A stretch of 64,000 nt of DNA, taken from contig NZ_BMNA01000017.1 of NCBI RefSeq assembly GCF_014646215.1, forward strand, positions 1 through 64,000, given 5' to 3'. Under the pieces are notes generated by a model that was given only the letters and a program-made list of their open reading frames with translations, was not told the DNA's origin and ran no database searches. Source of the DNA: Nakamurella endophytica. GTDB lineage: Bacteria > Actinomycetota > Actinomycetes > Mycobacteriales > Nakamurellaceae. This document shows, in pieces, positions 24,440 through 31,850 of the stretch. How positions within the stretch are numbered: position 1 is the stretch's first letter; each line of letters opens with the position of its first letter. The translations under genes were made by a program, and so were the position numbers.

Positions 24440-26173
24440 TCAGCTCGCCGTGGCCAGCCGGCGCCGGTCCTGGGCGTCCGAGCGCAGCGGCAGCGCGAGC
24501 GAGAACGTGGTGCCCTCGCCGGGCGTGCTGGCCACCCGGATCGTCCCGCCGTGGGCGGTGGCGATGGCCTTGGTGATGGTCAGCCCCAGGCCGACGCCCG
24601 GAACCGCGTTGGCGGTGGCGGTCGAGGCCCGGAAGAACCGGGAGAACAGGTTCTCCATCTCCTCGACCGGGATGCCGACGCCGGTGTCGGACACCGACAG
24701 CCTGGCCACCGGCTCGTCGCCGGAGTCGTCGATGCCGGCGCTGATGGCCACCCGCCCGCCGGGCTTGGTGAACTTGACCGCGTTGGAGACCAGGTTGTCG
24801 CACGCCTGCCCCAGCCGCACCGGGTCGCCGTCCACCGGGATCTCCCCGTCCGGCAGGAAGACCGACAGCGTGACGCCGGCCGCCGCGGCCGTCGGCCGCA
24901 GGCTCTCGCCGGTGGAGGTGACGATCTGCCGCAGGTCGACCGGCCGCCGGTCCAGGCTGAACTTGCCGGCCTCGACCTGGGCGGTGAAGAGCAGGTCCCC
25001 GACCAGCCGCAACAGGCGCTGCGCGTTCCGCTCGACGGTGGCCAGGTAGCCCATCTGCTCCGCGGAGAGCGGGTTCTCCTCGTCGTCGGCGATCAGTTCG
25101 AGGTACCCCAGGATCGAGCTCAACGGGGTGCGCAGCTCGTGCGAGATGAGGCCGGTGAACTCGTCCTTGAGCCGGGCCGCCTCCCGCTCGGCCGTCATGT
25201 CGGTCAGCACGAACAGGTAGCCCTCGAGGTCCCCGGCGGCGTCCCGCCGGGCCGTCGCGGAGATCCGCACGTCCAGCCCGCCGCCGTCGGCCCGGGTGAG
25301 CGACAGGTCGCGGATCTGCGGCGTGCCCGACCGGATCTCTCTGACCAGCTCGGCGAACCCGTCGTCGGCCGCGGCCGCCAGGGGGGACCCGGCGAGCAGC
25401 TCCGGGAGCAGGTGCCCCATGACCTCGTGCCGGGGCCGGCCCAGCATCCGCTCCGCCCCGGTGTTGTAGACGTCCACTGCACCGACGGTGTCGGTGCCGA
25501 TGATCGACTGCTCGGTGACCGAGTCGATGACGGTGCTCAGCTGCTCGGCCGACTCGCGCAGCAGGCTGGAGGCGGCGGCCGCCTCCAGTGCGTGGTCCTG
25601 GGCCTGCGACAGCAGCACCTCCTGCTGCGCCCGCAGCTGCGCCACCCGCTCGTACCGTCGGCGTAGCCGGCGGGACAGCTCGTTCACGGTCAGCGCCGCA
25701 CAGGCCAGCACCAGCGGTGTGAAGAAGGTGCGCAGCCAGACGCCGGCGGTCACCGAGGCCAGGTCCGGCAGCAGCGGGACCAGCGAGATGACGAACGATC
25801 CGATGGCGGCCAGCACCACGGGGAAGCGACCCCGCTCGATGCCCAGCGACAGCACCGCCAGGATCATCAGCGCGCTGAACGGCGACGACGCAGCCCCGGT
25901 GTCGATCCGCAGCAGGCCGGCCGCGACCAGGTCGGTCAGCGGGATGAGCATGTGCCACCGGGTCGGCACCTGCGGCCAGTGCACGGTGAGCGCCGCGACG
26001 GTGGCCGCGACCACGAGCGCCGCGGCCACCACGACGGGCCAGATCGCGCCCGCCCGGATGCCGGGCACCAGGAAGAGCAGGTACGCGATGAGGAACACGC
26101 CGGCGATCCCGACCTGCCGTTCGGCGACGGCGTACGGGTCCCGGCCGCGCGCGACCTGCTGCAGGAACGTCAC
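24440..26173 (-). CDS. Membrane PAS sensor histidine kinase
   Basis: The kinase has 577 residues. Six N-terminal membrane helices (to about residue 175) and a coiled-coil region (RRRYERVAQLRAQQEVLL) precede a PAS domain (about 220-340). The HisKA domain carries the phosphorylated His in SHELRTPLSS, and the HATPase domain has its N box (NLVSNAVKF), G1 (DTGVGIP) and G2 (GVGLGLTI) boxes. The start overlaps the stop of the receiver gene by 4 bp, so it is the kinase for one or both receivers upstream. Confidence 0.93.
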   Translation of the reverse strand: MTFLQQVARGRDPYAVAERQVGIAGVFLIAYLLFLVPGIRAGAIWPVVVAAALVVAATVAALTVHWPQVPTRWHMLIPLTDLVAAGLLRIDTGAASSPFSALMILAVLSLGIERGRFPVVLAAIGSFVISLVPLLPDLASVTAGVWLRTFFTPLVLACAALTVNELSRRLRRRYERVAQLRAQQEVLLSQAQDHALEAAAASSLLRESAEQLSTVIDSVTEQSIIGTDTVGAVDVYNTGAERMLGRPRHEVMGHLLPELLAGSPLAAAADDGFAELVREIRSGTPQIRDLSLTRADGGGLDVRISATARRDAAGDLEGYLFVLTDMTAEREAARLKDEFTGLISHELRTPLSSILGYLELIADDEENPLSAEQMGYLATVERNAQRLLRLVGDLLFTAQVEAGKFSLDRRPVDLRQIVTSTGESLRPTAAAAGVTLSVFLPDGEIPVDGDPVRLGQACDNLVSNAVKFTKPGGRVAISAGIDDSGDEPVARLSVSDTGVGIPVEEMENLFSRFFRASTATANAVPGVGLGLTITKAIATAHGGTIRVASTPGEGTTFSLALPLRSDAQDRRRLATAS

Positions 26174-26646
26174 GGTGCCGACCTCCTCGCGCCGGCCACC
26201 TCGGCCAGCCGTTGCGCCAGCGCCCGCGGGCTGAACGGCTTGGCGATGTAGCTGTGCGCGCCGGCGTCCAGTCCGACCTGCACCGCCTCGGGCTGCACCG
26301 AGGCGGAGAGCAGCAGGATGTCGGGACGGTGCGGGTCCGCCGGTGCGCCGCCGGTGCCGCAGACCGCGCGGCAGATCTGCAGGCCGGTCATCCCCGGCAT
26401 GCTGACGTCCAGCAGCGCCAGGTCGGGCCGTTCGGCGCGGATCCGCTCCAGCGCGGACGTCCCGTCGTGGGTGACGGCCAGGACGGTTCCGCCGGCCTTG
26501 CGGACCGCGACCTCCATCAGGTACGCGATGGCCGGGTCGTCGTCGGCGATGACGGCGGTCCAGACAGACCCGTCCGTCGCGCCGGTGCCGGGGCCGGTCC
26601 CGGTGGCGGTGTTCGTGCCGGCGGTGCCGGTGTCCTGCGCGGTCAC
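26170..26646 (-). CDS. Single-domain response regulator
   Basis: A 158-residue receiver with an N-terminal Gly/Thr-rich tail. The acidic pocket is VIADDD, the phosphorylated Asp lies in LALLDVSMPGMTG, the switch Ser in LLLSASV and the Lys in YIAKPFSP. There is no output domain, so it probably acts by protein contact or as a phosphate relay. It overlaps both neighbours by 4 bp. Confidence 0.9.
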   Translation of the reverse strand: MTAQDTGTAGTNTATGTGPGTGATDGSVWTAVIADDDPAIAYLMEVAVRKAGGTVLAVTHDGTSALERIRAERPDLALLDVSMPGMTGLQICRAVCGTGGAPADPHRPDILLLSASVQPEAVQVGLDAGAHSYIAKPFSPRALAQRLAEVAGARRSAP

Positions 26647-27035
26647 CGCGGCCGCGTCCGGACGACGTCCTGCAGCACCTCGAGCAGCCGGCTGCGGGTG
26701 AACGGTTTGGGCAGCACGGCGTCCGCCTCCGGGTAGTCCTGCGGGTCGAGCACCGAGGTGATCACCAGGGCGCAGTCCGGGAAGCGTTCGCGGACGATCC
26801 GGGCCAGCGTCCGGCCGTCCATCCCCGGCAGGTTCAGGTCGATGACCGCGACGTCGGGGACCAGCGTCGCGATCTCGACGAGGGCCTGCTCGGCGGACGC
26901 CACCGGGACCGGCCGGCAGCCGGCCCGGGTGACGTGCGTGGTCAGCAGCGACCGCTGGTCCTCCTCGTCGTCGACGACCAGGACGGTCAGTGCCGCCTGG
27001 GTCGACCCGCGCGGCACTGGAATCGACGTGCTCAT
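26643..27035 (-). CDS. Single-domain response regulator
   Basis: A receiver of 130 residues: VLVVDDEEDQ, phosphorylated Asp in VAVIDLNLPGMDG, switch Thr/Ser in VITSVLD and Lys in VLPKPFTRS. No output domain. The ATG at 27035 follows GAGGGG; the frame extends to 27155 without a better start. It is the first gene of the signalling half of the operon, 151 bp after the small membrane gene. Confidence 0.88.
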   Translation of the reverse strand: MSTSIPVPRGSTQAALTVLVVDDEEDQRSLLTTHVTRAGCRPVPVASAEQALVEIATLVPDVAVIDLNLPGMDGRTLARIVRERFPDCALVITSVLDPQDYPEADAVLPKPFTRSRLLEVLQDVVRTRPR

Positions 27036-27186
27036 CCCTACCGGTCCCCTCACCGAGCCTCGTGCCGGAGGCGTCGGCGACGCCGGTCCGGGTACCGCTG
27101 CAACCGCCACGCCGTCCGCCACCGTTGGGCCGGATGTCCAGCTCCTCACCGCCATGACCTCCTCGCAGTCGTGCCGTCGGGTCGGG

Positions 27187-27339
27187 TCACCACAACCCCC
27201 ACCGCAGGGCCAGCAGCGCGGCCACCGCCAGCAGCGCGACGACGGCGCACCGCACCATCCGCAGCTCGGAGCGCCGGTCCTGCCGGATCTCGTCCTCGGC
27301 GGTCGCCCGGTCGGGCACCGCGGCGGGGCCGGTCGTCAC
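27187..27339 (-). CDS. 50-residue single-helix membrane protein in the glycan operon
   Basis: The GTG start overlaps the glycosyltransferase stop by 4 bp. The sequence begins TTGPAAVPDRATAEDEIRQD, followed by a basic stretch and one C-terminal membrane helix (VRCAVVALLAVAALLALRW). The size and coupling suggest an accessory subunit of the membrane glycosyltransferase, comparable in layout to small partners of PgaC/BcsA-type synthases. No homologue is recognised. Confidence 0.65.
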   Translation of the reverse strand: MTTGPAAVPDRATAEDEIRQDRRSELRMVRCAVVALLAVAALLALRWGLW

Positions 27340-28823
27340 ACCATCACCCGCCCGGTCTTCTCGGTCTTGTCCCAGACCTGAGCGGCCTTGCGGTACTCCT
27401 TGACGTAGGCGTCGAAGGTGATCGCGCACAGCAGCGGGCCGTAGCCGACCAGGTAGACGAGCAGCGGCGCGAGCAGCCGGCCGGCCCGGGTCGCCTCGAC
27501 CCGGCGGGCCAGCCAGGCGAACACCATCGAGCAGGACACCCAGGCGTAGATGGCCAGGGTCACCGCCACGCCGCCGGCCGGCGGCAGGTCCAGACCCCAC
27601 AGCGAGATCCGCCCGTCCGGGTCCACCGCGCCGGGGAAGAACGCCAGCGCCATCACGACCAGCGAGACGACGCCCGGGAACAGCATCGCCTCGCGCCAGG
27701 AGCGCCGGCCGGTGGGCGCGTCGATCTGCACCACCATCGCGGTGATGAAGACGTAGCTGCCGGCGGCCAGCCACCACGTCGCCCGGAAGACCACCGTGGC
27801 CAGGTCCGAGTGCAGGAGGAACAGGCCGACCAGCCCGAGCGACGAGCCGATCATCGCCACCGGCAGCAGGAAGATGCAGAACCAGAACAGCCCGAACGAC
27901 ACCCCGCCGATGCGCCGGTCGCGCCACGGCCGGAACCACAGGTGCCGGAACATCTTCGTCACCTGGACGTTGCCGCGCGCCCAGCGCAGCCGCTGCTTCC
28001 ACAGTGCCGCGATGCTGCCCGGCTCCTCGGCCAGCACGACGGCGTAGGGTTCGAAGACCACCCGGCGTCCCGCCAGCTGGCTGCGGAACGTGGTGATGGT
28101 GTCCTCGGCCAGCGTGCTGGTGTCGATCCGACCGCCGATCGCGACCAGGTTCTCCCGGGAGTGCAGCTGCGCGCCGCCGGCCAGGCAGGCCAGCGCGCCG
28201 AGCACGTTGCCGGCCCGCCGCGCCGCCGCCTGCGCAGCGATGTACTCGTAGGCGATGAACCGCGTCAGGTAGTTGGGATCGCCGCTGCCCTCACGGATGT
28301 AGGCGGTGACCGCCCCGACCTCGGGGTCGGCCAGGTGCCGCGTCATCCTGCGCAGCGAGTCCGGCCGGTAGATGACGTCGGCGTCCATGACCAGCAACGC
28401 CTCCATCCAGTCCTCGGCCAGCACGATCTCGATGCCGTGGTTGAGGGTGTGGGCCTTGCCCTGGCCGCCCTTGGCGCGGCGGAGGTGGAACACCCGGCCC
28501 GGGTAGCGGGCGGCCCGACCGAGCACGACCTCGGGGGTGTCGTCGGTGCTGGCGTCGTCGACGACGTACACCCGCAGCGCCGATTCCGGGTACTCCAGGC
28601 CCATCAGCCGGTCGATGGACCGTCCGATCACCGCGCCCTCGTTCCAGGCCGGGACGATGACGGCGACCCGCGGCAGGTACGGCGCCGCCCGCCGGTAGTG
28701 GTTGCGCCACGCGTGCAGGGGGATGAGCAGGAACTGGTACGCGCCGACCGCCACCGGCACCGCGCCGAGCGCGACGAGGACCAGGCAGAGCCCGGTCACC
28801 GTCGCGTGAAGGGCAGTCGTCAC
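27336..28823 (-). CDS. Membrane glycosyltransferase family 2 (PgaC/hyaluronan-synthase-like)
   Basis: This 495-residue processive-type GT2 has one N-terminal helix, then the catalytic domain: PAWNEGAVIG, DDASTDDTPE, the DxD metal motif in VMDADVIYRP, an acceptor-site EDTIT and the processivity motif QRLRW (QxxRW). Five or six C-terminal membrane helices follow. Enzymes of this shape polymerise N-acetylglucosamine or a similar sugar and export it. The GTG start overlaps the PHP gene stop by 4 bp. Confidence 0.92.
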   Translation of the reverse strand: MTTALHATVTGLCLVLVALGAVPVAVGAYQFLLIPLHAWRNHYRRAAPYLPRVAVIVPAWNEGAVIGRSIDRLMGLEYPESALRVYVVDDASTDDTPEVVLGRAARYPGRVFHLRRAKGGQGKAHTLNHGIEIVLAEDWMEALLVMDADVIYRPDSLRRMTRHLADPEVGAVTAYIREGSGDPNYLTRFIAYEYIAAQAAARRAGNVLGALACLAGGAQLHSRENLVAIGGRIDTSTLAEDTITTFRSQLAGRRVVFEPYAVVLAEEPGSIAALWKQRLRWARGNVQVTKMFRHLWFRPWRDRRIGGVSFGLFWFCIFLLPVAMIGSSLGLVGLFLLHSDLATVVFRATWWLAAGSYVFITAMVVQIDAPTGRRSWREAMLFPGVVSLVVMALAFFPGAVDPDGRISLWGLDLPPAGGVAVTLAIYAWVSCSMVFAWLARRVEATRAGRLLAPLLVYLVGYGPLLCAITFDAYVKEYRKAAQVWDKTEKTGRVMV

Positions 28824-29710
28824 CGTGCGATGGTGACAGATGGACGCTCCGTGGCGAAGCGTCCGGCGGACATCCGGCTCCGGCGCAGCACGCCGCGGAC
28901 CGCGTCGTAGCGCCCGACGTCCCGGCTGTGGTGGGCGTCGGTCGAGGCGACCAGCGGCACCCCCGCCGCCCGCAGCGCGGCAACGACCCGCGGGCCCGGG
29001 CAGGCCCACTTCTCGTTGACCTCGACGGTGGCACCGGTGGCGAGCAGGTCGGCGACCAGCGCGGTGAGGTGCTCGTCGGTGACGGCGGTCTCGTCCAGCC
29101 CGATCTTGGGCAGCAGCGAGAACAGGTGCGCCAGCTGCGGGCCGGGCACCCGGTGCACGGCGCGTCCGGTGGCCAGGACCAGGGTGTCGACGATGTCGGC
29201 CGCGGCCAGTCCGGCGGCCCGCCGCTCGAGCACCACCCGGGGGGACGCCGGCCCGTCCGGCCCGGGGAACTGGTGGTCGGCCAGCAGCACCGCGTCCAGG
29301 CCGGCCCGCCCGGCGAGCACCTCGGGCGGCGCGTCGACGGTCCCGGCCGCGTCGAGGATCTTGGCCTCGACGCCGACCCGCACCCGCAGCCCGGCCGGCC
29401 GGGTCAGCCGGCGGACCTCGGCGACGAACCCGGGCAGGTACGTGGTCGAGACCCGCACGTGGTCGACCATCAGCAGGTCGGTCAGCCCGGCCACCGCGGC
29501 GGCGGCCAGGTTCTCCTCCGGGGTGCTGTGGCCGTCGTCGGAGAACGTGGAGTGCACGTGGTGGTCGCCGCGCAGCAGCGCGGCGTCCGCGGCGCCCAGT
29601 ACGTCGGTGCCCAGTGCGTCGGTGCCGAACAGATCCGTGCCGAGCCCGTCGGTGCCGAAGCCGTGGGTGCCGACGCCGATCTCGTCGCTGTCCCGACGCT
29701 CGCCGGTCAT
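28820..29710 (-). CDS. PHP-domain phosphoesterase with an N-terminal pentapeptide-like repeat
   Basis: A 296-residue protein. The metal-binding HxH is in DHHVHSTFSDDG, followed by MVDHVRVS, a further ADHQFPG and a C-terminal STDAHHSRDVGRY, matching histidinol-phosphatase-like PHP enzymes. It could dephosphorylate a sugar or amino-sugar phosphate made by its neighbours. Residues 13-41 are a repeat of five-residue units close to LGTDx. The ATG start overlaps the ATP-grasp stop by 4 bp. Confidence 0.87.
   Translation of the reverse strand: MTGERRDSDEIGVGTHGFGTDGLGTDLFGTDALGTDVLGAADAALLRGDHHVHSTFSDDGHSTPEENLAAAAVAGLTDLLMVDHVRVSTTYLPGFVAEVRRLTRPAGLRVRVGVEAKILDAAGTVDAPPEVLAGRAGLDAVLLADHQFPGPDGPASPRVVLERRAAGLAAADIVDTLVLATGRAVHRVPGPQLAHLFSLLPKIGLDETAVTDEHLTALVADLLATGATVEVNEKWACPGPRVVAALRAAGVPLVASTDAHHSRDVGRYDAVRGVLRRSRMSAGRFATERPSVTIAR
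29588..29674. repeat. 15-bp tandem repeat at the start of the PHP gene
   Basis: About six diverged copies of a 15-bp unit, each encoding a five-residue block of the form (L/F)-G-T-D-x. The frame is kept. Confidence 0.75.
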
Positions 29711-30726
29711 CCCGCGCCCGCGCCGGCCGCCACCGCGTCCCCGAGCTCGCCGCCCGGGACCGCGATGATCTCCGCCGGGTCCAGGAAGACGTCCTCGAGG
29801 TAGCGCACCATCGCCACCTCGCGGAACGGCACGTGCGCCGGCACCGGCCGGCCCAGGACGAGATCCAGGGTGAGCGACGGCATGTCGACGCCGGAGGCCA
29901 CGGTGAGCGGCATCGCGCCGGAGAACCGCGGGTTGACCTCGAGCAGGGCCGGGGTGCCGTCGGCGGTCCGCTTGAGCTGGATGTTGGCGACCGTGGTGAG
30001 CCCGATGGCGCGGGCCACCGCCGCCGCGGTGTCCTGTAGCTCCCGGTCGGCCAGGGTGCGCCCGGCGACGGACACCCCCGAGTCGACCCGCAACCGCGAG
30101 CGCGGCACCGCGGCGATCACGGAGCCGTCCATGCCGGCGATCAGGTCGACCGAGTACTCCTCGCCGGGCAGGTGGTCCTGCACCAGCCAGGCGTTGTCGG
30201 CGCCCCGGGCGGCCAGTTCGGCCGGCGTGGAGACCAGGCTGATGCCCCGCGACCCGGCGCCGCTGCGCGGCTTGACGATCACCGGGAAGCTGCGGCCCTC
30301 GGCGGCCGCGGGGGAGAGCAGGTCGGTCCGCGGGACCGTGACCACCCCGGCGCACCGCTGCGCCAGCGCGTACTTGTCCAGGCAGACGAGCAGGGTGTCC
30401 AGCGACGGCGAGGCCAGCCGGACGCCCTGCGCGGCCAGGTCGTCGGCGCGGCGGGCGGCCACCGGCAGCTCGACGTCCACGGTCGGGAACAGCACGTCGA
30501 CGTCCTCGCGCCGGCACAGCTCGAGCACCGCGTCGGCGAAGCCGGGCGCCAGACCGGCCGGCACCAGAGCCCGGTCGGCCGCGGGCACCAGGTAGAGACC
30601 GCTGGCGTAGGCGTCCATGTCCGCCGCGACGACGCGGACGTCGCCGCGGCGCAGCAGCGACCGGATGATCGCCACGCCGGCGGGTCCGCCGGCCCCCGTG
30701 ACGAGCACCGTCACCCGGTCGCTCAC
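29707..30726 (-). CDS. ATP-grasp ligase (carbamoyl-phosphate-synthase-like fold)
   Basis: The enzyme has 339 residues. An N-terminal Rossmann-type region starts VTVLVTGAGGPAGVAIIRSL. The ATP-grasp core has FPVIVKPRSGAGSRG (glycine-rich loop), LVQDHLPGEEYSVDLI and LLEVNPRFSGAMPLT (metal-binding Glu/Asn). Such ligases join a carboxylate to an amine at the cost of ATP. Next to a PIG-L deacetylase, a free amine on a sugar is a sensible acceptor. GTG start, 4-bp overlap with the upstream gene. Confidence 0.88.
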   Translation of the reverse strand: MSDRVTVLVTGAGGPAGVAIIRSLLRRGDVRVVAADMDAYASGLYLVPAADRALVPAGLAPGFADAVLELCRREDVDVLFPTVDVELPVAARRADDLAAQGVRLASPSLDTLLVCLDKYALAQRCAGVVTVPRTDLLSPAAAEGRSFPVIVKPRSGAGSRGISLVSTPAELAARGADNAWLVQDHLPGEEYSVDLIAGMDGSVIAAVPRSRLRVDSGVSVAGRTLADRELQDTAAAVARAIGLTTVANIQLKRTADGTPALLEVNPRFSGAMPLTVASGVDMPSLTLDLVLGRPVPAHVPFREVAMVRYLEDVFLDPAEIIAVPGGELGDAVAAGAGAG

Positions 30727-31850
30727 GACGCCAGCACCGTCGGGTCCGGGACCGCGACGAGACCGTGGCCGCCGCCGGCCGTCCCGGCCACCGGTCCGTC
30801 CTCGGTCGCGCCGGCGGTCCGGCCGGTGAGCACGTCGGAGGTGTCCCGGAGCACCTCGAGCGGCTCGCAGCTCCGGCCGCCGCCGTAGCGGGACCAGTAC
30901 CGGGCGGTCGCCAGCACGAAATCCGGCTCCAGGTACTCCCTGCGGTCGGTCTGCGAGGCGAAACAGGCCAGCAGCGCCAGTTTCGCGTCGGTGAACCCGT
31001 CGATCGGCGCGAACCGGGTCGGCCGGAAGTCGACCGTGGCGGAGGGGCTCTGGTAGCAGGCGAACGTCGGTACCCGCCGGGTCGCCACCAGCGCGGCCTG
31101 GTGCACGGCGCGGTGGTCCTGGTGCCGGTCGTTCGCGGAATGGGTGTAGACGACGGTCGGTGAGACCTCGGCGACCACCCGCTCGATGATCGAGACCGTC
31201 GGCTCCGCCGCGCCGATCGCCGTGTCGGTCAGGTCCTCGAGGAACAGCCGGGCACCGATGAGCTCCGCGGCCGCCAGCGACTCGTGCTGCCGGTCGTCGG
31301 CATCGCCGCCGCGCGCCCCCCGGGACAGCGTCAGGATGACGACCGAGTCCCCGGCCGCCCGGTGCGCGGCGAGCAGCCCGCCGACGCCTATCTCGACGTC
31401 GTCCGGATGGGCGCCGATCGCCAGTACCACCTGGGGAGCCTGCTCGGTGCGCCGGCGGCGGCTGGTCTCGGCCAGCGCGGTGACCTTGGAGACGACGTCG
31501 CTGCTGCGGAACGGCTTGACCAGGAAGTCGTCCACCTGGTGACGCAGCGCCCGGACGGCGTAGTCGACCGAGGCGTGCGCGGTCATCACCACGACGGACA
31601 GCGCCGGGGACTGCAGGCGGATCTGCTCGACCAGGTCCATGCCGCTCATGCCGGGCAGCTCGATGTCGGTGAGCACGACGTCCGGGTCGACCGACCGCCA
31701 GGCGGCCAGGGCGGCCAGCCCGTCGGTGAACACGTGCACGTCCAGGTCTGCGCGGCGACCCAGCACCACGCGCAGGAGCTCCGCCAGGTCGGCGTCGTCC
31801 TCGACGATGAGGATCCGGTACGGCCCCCCGCGCACGCTCGACGTCGTCAT
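30723..31850 (-). CDS. Response-regulator receiver fused to a PIG-L family N-deacetylase
   Basis: The product has 375 residues. Residues 10-130 are a complete receiver (LIVEDDAD, phosphorylated Asp in VVLTDIELPGMSG, switch Thr in VVMTAHAS, Lys in FLVKPFRSS). Residues about 145-340 are a LmbE/PIG-L de-N-acetylase with zinc motif GAHPDDVEIG and a second metal site HQDHRAVH. Relatives such as MshB remove acetyl from N-acetylglucosamine conjugates. Here phosphorylation could switch a sugar deacetylase directly. The ATG at 31850 has GAGGAGG ideally placed. First gene of the operon. Confidence 0.9.
   Translation of the reverse strand: MTTSSVRGGPYRILIVEDDADLAELLRVVLGRRADLDVHVFTDGLAALAAWRSVDPDVVLTDIELPGMSGMDLVEQIRLQSPALSVVVMTAHASVDYAVRALRHQVDDFLVKPFRSSDVVSKVTALAETSRRRRTEQAPQVVLAIGAHPDDVEIGVGGLLAAHRAAGDSVVILTLSRGARGGDADDRQHESLAAAELIGARLFLEDLTDTAIGAAEPTVSIIERVVAEVSPTVVYTHSANDRHQDHRAVHQAALVATRRVPTFACYQSPSATVDFRPTRFAPIDGFTDAKLALLACFASQTDRREYLEPDFVLATARYWSRYGGGRSCEPLEVLRDTSDVLTGRTAGATEDGPVAGTAGGGHGLVAVPDPTVLAS

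Follow-up and report, generated by a model that had tools for sequence, protein, structure and literature searches.

Mycothiol assembly combines a glycosyltransferase (MshA), a phosphatase (MshA2), a PIG-L de-N-acetylase (MshB) and an ATP-dependent ligase that acts on the freed amine (MshC). In PgaC/IcaA systems, a membrane glycosyltransferase is accompanied by a small membrane partner (PgaD/IcaD) and a secreted polysaccharide deacetylase. Exosortase, the third point of comparison, is encoded by a gene that almost always sits among exopolysaccharide genes (PMC1569441). Here we describe an eight-gene operon on the minus strand (31850-24440) of the window, the 64,000-nucleotide stretch at positions 1 to 64,000 of contig NZ_BMNA01000017.1 from Nakamurella endophytica. 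It codes for a receiver fused to a PIG-L de-N-acetylase, an ATP-grasp enzyme, a PHP-domain phosphoesterase, a membrane GT2 glycosyltransferase, a small membrane protein, two stand-alone receivers and a PAS sensor kinase (Table 1). The core of this cassette recurs in the same order across 15 named actinobacterial genera, and its enzymes are kept even where they have become unlinked.

An earlier note on this stretch, made from the letters alone, had described eight genes on one strand with six 4-bp overlaps, and the coordinates bear this out: start/stop overlaps (GTGA/ATGA) occupy six of the seven junctions, and a 31-bp gap separates the small membrane protein from the first stand-alone receiver at the other. 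The enzyme families it named also hold, since all named domains exceed their Pfam cut-offs; the ATPgrasp_Ter domain scores 112.3 bits against a cut-off of 29.1.

Conservation of the cassette

Named genomes were scanned with an alignment of the ATP-grasp protein, which brought up 270 relatives; the locus counts given here refer to the best 80 of these. Loci and genomes carry our own numbers (L and G, respectively), G000 being the genome of the window. The 80 loci belong to genome bins and to 15 named genera, namely Cellulomonas, Blastococcus, Leifsonia, Sanguibacter, Nakamurella, Pseudonocardia, Diaminobutyricibacter, Glaciihabitans, Frigoribacterium, Agromyces, Okibacterium, Pseudoclavibacter, Salinibacterium, Nocardioides and Leucobacter; soil and water actinobacteria are among the carriers. 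The receiver-PIG-L gene lies immediately upstream of the ATP-grasp gene in 76 loci and the PHP gene immediately downstream in all 80, with GT2 following PHP in 64 (57 under a strict 600-base adjacency limit). A kinase homologue is found within 3.5 kb downstream in 57 of the 75 loci with enough contig. In Blastococcus, the kinase instead lies ~6 kb upstream of the ATP-grasp gene in 14 of 16 loci, the contigs of the remaining two starting too close for its position to be judged. Two loci carry tandem, near full-length receiver-PIG-L copies upstream of the ATP-grasp gene (L091 7809-9935 and L098 7821-9935).

The distribution is patchy: the cassette is carried by six of 17 genomes in the genus, by 26 of 397 in the order and by 17 of 150 in the Cellulomonas family; the same enzyme core occurs in two of 396 sampled genomes of the phylum, both of another class. 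The plasmid search gave a single distant match, in Haloarcula (33% at an E value of 1e-30), and viral contigs gave two weak matches to the GT2 alignment. The earlier note had proposed seeking the gene order in other genomes and regarded genes that are not conserved together as fatal to its reading. The core order is kept in relatives from 15 genera, and the genes are conserved, co-occur and persist even when unlinked. The operon is thus more than a chance arrangement, because its core order recurs in relatives and the flanking genes are less widely kept than the core.

Co-occurrence and retention of unlinked genes

The note had also suggested asking whether the GT2 co-occurs with PIG-L and ATP-grasp. 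Within the order, GT2 (E ≤1e-60) is present in 24 of 397 genomes, and all 24 fall within the 26 that hold a close ATP-grasp gene (E ≤2e-75). Each of the 24 has a single GT2 copy, fragmented in one genome. The two ATP-grasp-positive genomes without GT2 are one that retains only a GT2 remnant (G220) and one whose contig stops inside the cassette (G064).

Among the 80 loci, 14 have no GT2 beside PHP, and two others lack it through a contig end (L058) or decay of the gene (L035). The search for unlinked copies covered eight of these 14 genomes, and every one of the eight proved to hold exactly one GT2 ortholog outside the cassette (E ≤1.6e-227). The idea that GT2 is dispensable was rejected on this result. 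Similarly, a Nakamurella genome (G008) that has no receiver-PIG-L gene in its cassette carries one on another contig (E 5.9e-172). Across 68 genomes, those with unlinked copies included, the distances between GT2 proteins correlate with those between ATP-grasp proteins (r 0.85), and none of 2000 permutations reached this value.

One genome of a Blastococcus-type genus (G382) contains a decayed cassette (L152 5810-9152), in which GT2 and ATP-grasp are split across several frames and the PIG-L part is gone. This joint decay fits a single shared function, and sequencing error is also possible.

A small membrane protein accompanying GT2

The 50-residue small membrane protein matches no family in Pfam or NCBIfam, and one of its homologues gives two weak family matches, far under cut-off. 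In 75 of the 80 loci, a counterpart with a similar charged stretch and a single hydrophobic segment comes after GT2, or after PHP if the cassette lacks GT2, and in 70 of these it does so at the identical 4-bp overlap. By comparison, 497 control genes from the same loci include 20 followed by any such hydrophobic open reading frame, four with a loose version of the motif and none at that overlap. The five loci without the small protein are L035, where the match is a GT2 remnant; L058, at a contig end; L059 and L063, whose copy lies next to the unlinked GT2; and L074, where it was not found. It accompanies the unlinked GT2 in C. fimi and C. algicola. All 13 loci recovered by the genome searches have it after GT2 with that 4-bp overlap; three of them (L022, L024 and L025) come from genomes already within the 80. 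The small membrane protein is a conserved partner in the cassette and is associated with GT2, and a conserved protein of no known family in this position is part of what makes the cassette of interest.

Gene products and active sites

Table 1. Genes of the minus-strand operon, in order of transcription
Product	Coordinates	Strand	Length (residues)	Features
Receiver-PIG-L (LmbE-type) de-N-acetylase fusion	30723..31850	-	375	Pfam Response_reg 1.2e-28, PIG-L 1.3e-22
ATP-grasp ligase-type enzyme with PylC-like N-domain	29707..30726	-	339	Pfam ATPgrasp_Ter 1.8e-32, ATP-grasp_3, PylC-like_N
PHP-domain metal phosphoesterase	28820..29710	-	296	Pfam PHP 2.8e-07
Membrane GT2 glycosyltransferase (DxD, ED, QxxRW)	27336..28823	-	495	Pfam Glyco_tranf_2_3 4.2e-31
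Small membrane protein	27187..27339	-	50	Charged E-x-x-x-x-R-R-x-E stretch, then single hydrophobic segment
Stand-alone receiver 1	26643..27155	-	170	Pfam Response_reg 1.2e-14
Stand-alone receiver 2	26170..26646	-	158	Pfam Response_reg 1.1e-22
PAS sensor histidine kinase	24440..26173	-	577	Pfam PAS_9, HisKA, HATPase_c

Catalytic residues were compared in alignments of 76, 79, 72 and 64 of the 80 loci (receiver-PIG-L, ATP-grasp, PHP and GT2, respectively) plus the window, short or cut matches being excluded. Receiver residues D18, D19, D62, T90 and K112, comprising the acidic pair, phospho-acceptor, threonine and lysine, are identical in all 77 aligned sequences, as are the PIG-L zinc and base residues H148, D150, D151, H243, D245 and H246. 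ATP-grasp K118, K152, E263 and N265 are identical in 80 of 80 sequences. The metal ligands of PHP (H51, H53, H84, E115, H146, H195, D258 and H260) are invariant in 73 of 73, and the D, DxD, ED and QxxRW motif residues of GT2 in 65 of 65. According to Pfam, neither stand-alone receiver contains a DNA-binding or other output domain. The N-terminus of the PAS kinase is hydrophobic as judged by eye. In L027 (6656-7783), the receiver-PIG-L gene is inverted and divergent from the other cassette genes, and a second PIG-L copy is present elsewhere in that genome.

The predicted structure of the ATP-grasp enzyme (mean predicted local distance difference test score, pLDDT, 91.5) best matches 2pn1 from Exiguobacterium over its full length (Z 32.1, root-mean-square deviation (rmsd) 2.3 over 296 residues), which is also its best sequence match in the PDB at 25% identity. 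The 2pn1 entry is titled as a carbamoylphosphate synthase large subunit, and the protein is not known to have been assayed; no substrate can therefore be transferred from it to the cassette enzyme. In the GT2 model (pLDDT 85.7), several long helices lie beyond the catalytic domain, a feature of membrane synthases. Its top fold match is PcManGT (Z 30.1, rmsd 3.2, 337 residues aligned), followed by hyaluronan and cellulose synthases (Z 18.9-23.8). No PgaC structure is among the GT2 fold matches listed, which carries no weight, and the fold searches indicated no specific substrate. The best NCBIfam model for GT2 is PgaC_IcaA (TIGR03937), whose cut-off it fails (114.5 bits against 422.3).

A distant cluster with exosortase

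The order search yielded 31 further genomes with an ATP-grasp gene at E values of 9e-68 to 1.2e-51, the next closest group, with 37-41% identity. The surrounding cluster was examined in six of the 31 (L140-L144 and L153), and by BLAST all six contain PIG-L, GT2, ATP-grasp, an exosortase-like gene, WecB (a UDP-GlcNAc 2-epimerase) and a HAD phosphatase; family models were checked in some of the six. Nothing in the cluster matches the PHP, receivers or kinase of the window cassette at E 1e-5. Exosortase (TIGR04178) exceeds its cut-off in five of five distant-type genomes searched, in two of 17 genomes with the window type of cassette, and not in G000. We considered exosortase as a missing partner of the window-type cassette and rejected it on these counts.

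Five of the six clusters (L140 (3164-10639), L141, L142, L144 and L153) also hold one or two small proteins each, eight in total, whose C-termini consist of L/M-P-x-x-x-N-G, a hydrophobic stretch and arginines. Such C-termini resemble exosortase targets. The distant cluster is thus likely to encode an exosortase and target pair, for which the cluster itself may make the acceptor. A still more distant ATP-grasp gene (L146) has a DegT aminotransferase as its neighbor within a polysaccharide cluster.

WecB interconverts uridine diphosphate (UDP)-N-acetylglucosamine (GlcNAc) and UDP-N-acetylmannosamine (ManNAc). Because it accompanies the GT2, PIG-L and ATP-grasp trio shared by both clusters, the trio probably acts on an N-acetyl-hexosamine, and the presence of a HAD phosphatase where the cassette has PHP suggests that PHP marks a genuine dephosphorylation step. 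This analogy is the best clue to the substrate, and by it the amino-sugar substrate and phosphatase step of the earlier note gain indirect backing.

Proposed pathway and alternatives

We tentatively favor a signal-gated pathway whose product would be an amino-sugar conjugate modified at nitrogen and made on the cytoplasmic side of the membrane. This reading starts from observed features: the gene set, its conservation, the retention of unlinked genes, the intact active sites and the association of GT2 with the small protein. The co-occurrence and correlated distances of GT2 and ATP-grasp, the distant cluster and the setting of L146 speak for it as well. The individual reactions are assigned from knowledge of the enzyme families. 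GT2, with the small membrane protein as partner, would use a nucleotide sugar to attach an N-acetyl-hexosamine to either a lipid or a small acceptor, or would build a short chain. PHP would remove phosphate from an intermediate. The PIG-L domain would then free the amine, its receiver being phosphorylated by the PAS kinase, and the two stand-alone receivers might balance that phosphorylation. Finally, the ATP-grasp enzyme would join a carboxylate, perhaps an amino acid, to the freed amine. The acceptor, the order of steps, the acyl group, the signal and the wiring between kinase and receivers are conjecture.

Several observations weigh against this conjugate pathway. First, the further fold matches of the ATP-grasp enzyme are mainly biotin carboxylases, with some amide ligases and with PylC in the list; the fold does not separate carboxylation from amide ligation, and amide formation is unproven. 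Second, GT2 holds the full motif set of a polymer synthase, and a polymer for export would suit this better than a small conjugate would. In motifs and fold, GT2 looks more like a polymer synthase than is implied by the wording of the earlier note, that it makes or adds an amino-sugar. Third, six Leifsonia genomes keep the small protein in the cassette and have their GT2 elsewhere with none beside it; the pairing is therefore not a strictly genetic one. Fourth, the shared history of related genomes means that the co-occurrence counts overstate independence. Fifth, phospho-control is not universal: the receiver is degenerate in L027, unmatched by BLAST in L147 and partly matched in L148 and L149. 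The kinase, moreover, is not downstream in every locus, and in L188 a DNA-binding regulator adjoins the kinase. The direct two-component control proposed by the earlier note is plausible from the invariant receiver residues and from stand-alone receivers devoid of DNA-binding domains, with these loci as exceptions.

An exported amino-polysaccharide is the principal alternative, a possibility that we rate nearly as likely as the conjugate, though we lean away from it. GT2 and the small protein would act together as a synthase-exporter of the PgaC/PgaD kind, for which PIG-L, ATP-grasp and PHP would first make a modified nucleotide sugar or primer. The invariant GT2 motifs, the choice of PgaC_IcaA as best family model and the hyaluronan and cellulose synthase fold matches argue for a polymer, as do the polysaccharide-like gene run divergent from one cassette (L187, described below) and the distant cluster's exosortase, given the usual setting of that gene. 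The PgaC_IcaA score nonetheless falls far below its cut-off, the top fold match is PcManGT, and Pfam assigns none of the cassette genes to polysaccharide deacetylation, export or length control. PIG-L and ATP-grasp, moreover, look cytosolic (no signal peptide by eye), which would place them out of reach of an exported chain.

It is improbable that the cassette makes a small, soluble molecule (a metabolite like mycothiol, or a signal such as a messenger) whose level the kinase sets, with GT2 glycosylating that molecule. The set of glycosyltransferase, phosphatase, PIG-L and ATP-dependent ligase does follow mycothiol logic, and GT2 scores 79.4 bits to the mycofactocin glycosyltransferase MftF, for which the cut-off is 280. 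However, the GT2 model has long helices like those of membrane synthases, a membrane peptide follows the gene, and for mycothiol the genome has its own MshC. That the genes are independent neighbors packed into a dense genome is barely credible: such composition and overlaps are common in actinobacteria, but the core order across 15 genera, the co-occurrence and the retention when unlinked already contradict it.

A bolder reading, which we regard as rather unlikely, is a new type of two-component output. The kinase would directly switch a de-N-acetylase in its own cassette, the ATP-grasp enzyme would cap the amine so timed, and the membrane glycoconjugate would itself be the response; the shared trio of the distant exosortase cluster would make an amine acceptor for surface proteins with LP...NG tails. 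The cassette defines a pathway that many environmental actinobacteria carry and that apparently has not been described, and the connection it implies between a sensor kinase and a sugar-modifying enzyme can be tested. Finding the product would put a name to a new conjugate of the surface or membrane and may account for the anchor built by the related exosortase clusters.

Neighboring genes

No flanking gene is as widespread across the 80 loci as the core. In 22 of these loci (e.g., L040 14095-14919), from Microbacteriaceae-type genera and bins, an amidase-like carbon-nitrogen hydrolase shares the strand of the cassette; against the model for deaminated glutathione amidase, which has a cut-off of 355, it scores 229.8 bits. 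It is found 3-75 bases past the kinase in 13 loci, 321-336 bases past it in two and upstream of receiver-PIG-L in seven. A convergent aminotransferase lies nearby in 21 loci. Our guess is that both genes are shared chromosomal neighbors, and a functional link may also exist.

A luciferase-like monooxygenase and flavin mononucleotide (FMN) reductase pair (CE1758/CE1759), over the cut-offs of TIGR04036 and TIGR04037, is divergent from the cassette in 23 Cellulomonas loci (e.g., L028 6919-8711) and lies by the unlinked GT2 in four of six Leifsonia loci fetched (L170 6108-9616, L167, L168 and L173). The pair may reflect an old neighborhood or be a real accessory; the window has no match to it at E 1e-20, and neither it nor the amidase-like gene is within the window's operon. 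In a genome of another class, a run of CHASE3 hybrid kinase, MBOAT acyltransferase and GH5 glycosidase genes is divergent from the cassette (L187 1843-7188) and hints at polysaccharide.

Comparison with known systems

The cassette matches mycothiol assembly in enzyme logic and differs in its parts: the glycosyltransferase is GT2 rather than GT4, the phosphatase is of the PHP type, the ligase is an ATP-grasp enzyme rather than a cysteinyl-tRNA-synthetase-like one, and a receiver is fused to PIG-L. The true MshC (TIGR03447) is elsewhere in the window's genome, at G000:C2 (636.6 bits, cut-off 485.1). MshB (TIGR03445, cut-off 224.35) is not in the best 25 of 98 families for the cassette PIG-L, the 25th of which scores 54.3 bits, and the bacillithiol enzyme model BshB1 (TIGR04001) gives 77.4 bits, failing its cut-off of 182.5. 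The mycothiol resemblance drawn by the earlier note therefore survives as logic, whereas no cassette protein passes the Msh tests and MshC sits elsewhere. Judged by the family models applied, the cassette is not a mycothiol, bacillithiol or poly-N-acetylglucosamine (PNAG) system.

Compared with PgaC/IcaA systems, the cassette GT2 belongs to the same broad membrane group and has a small membrane partner. In place of the secreted polysaccharide deacetylase it has PIG-L, ATP-grasp and PHP are added, and the partner has one hydrophobic segment and matches no family. The exosortase clusters share PIG-L, GT2 and a related ATP-grasp with the cassette; they differ in having exosortase, WecB, HAD and usually a target-like protein, and in the missing PHP, receiver and kinase matches. 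The ATP-grasp enzyme resembles 2pn1 in fold along its whole length and differs from it in three of every four aligned residues. Although it contains an ATPgrasp_Ter domain, Pfam finds no Ter-family partner among the eight operon proteins.

Literature searches for the gene set or the receiver-PIG-L fusion, and on exosortases and PcManGT, gave no description of the cassette among the matches listed, which does not prove absence. The cassette appears to be a new and apparently undescribed combination of known enzyme families. It is real and widespread, and it includes an unusual receiver-enzyme fusion and a family-less small membrane protein.

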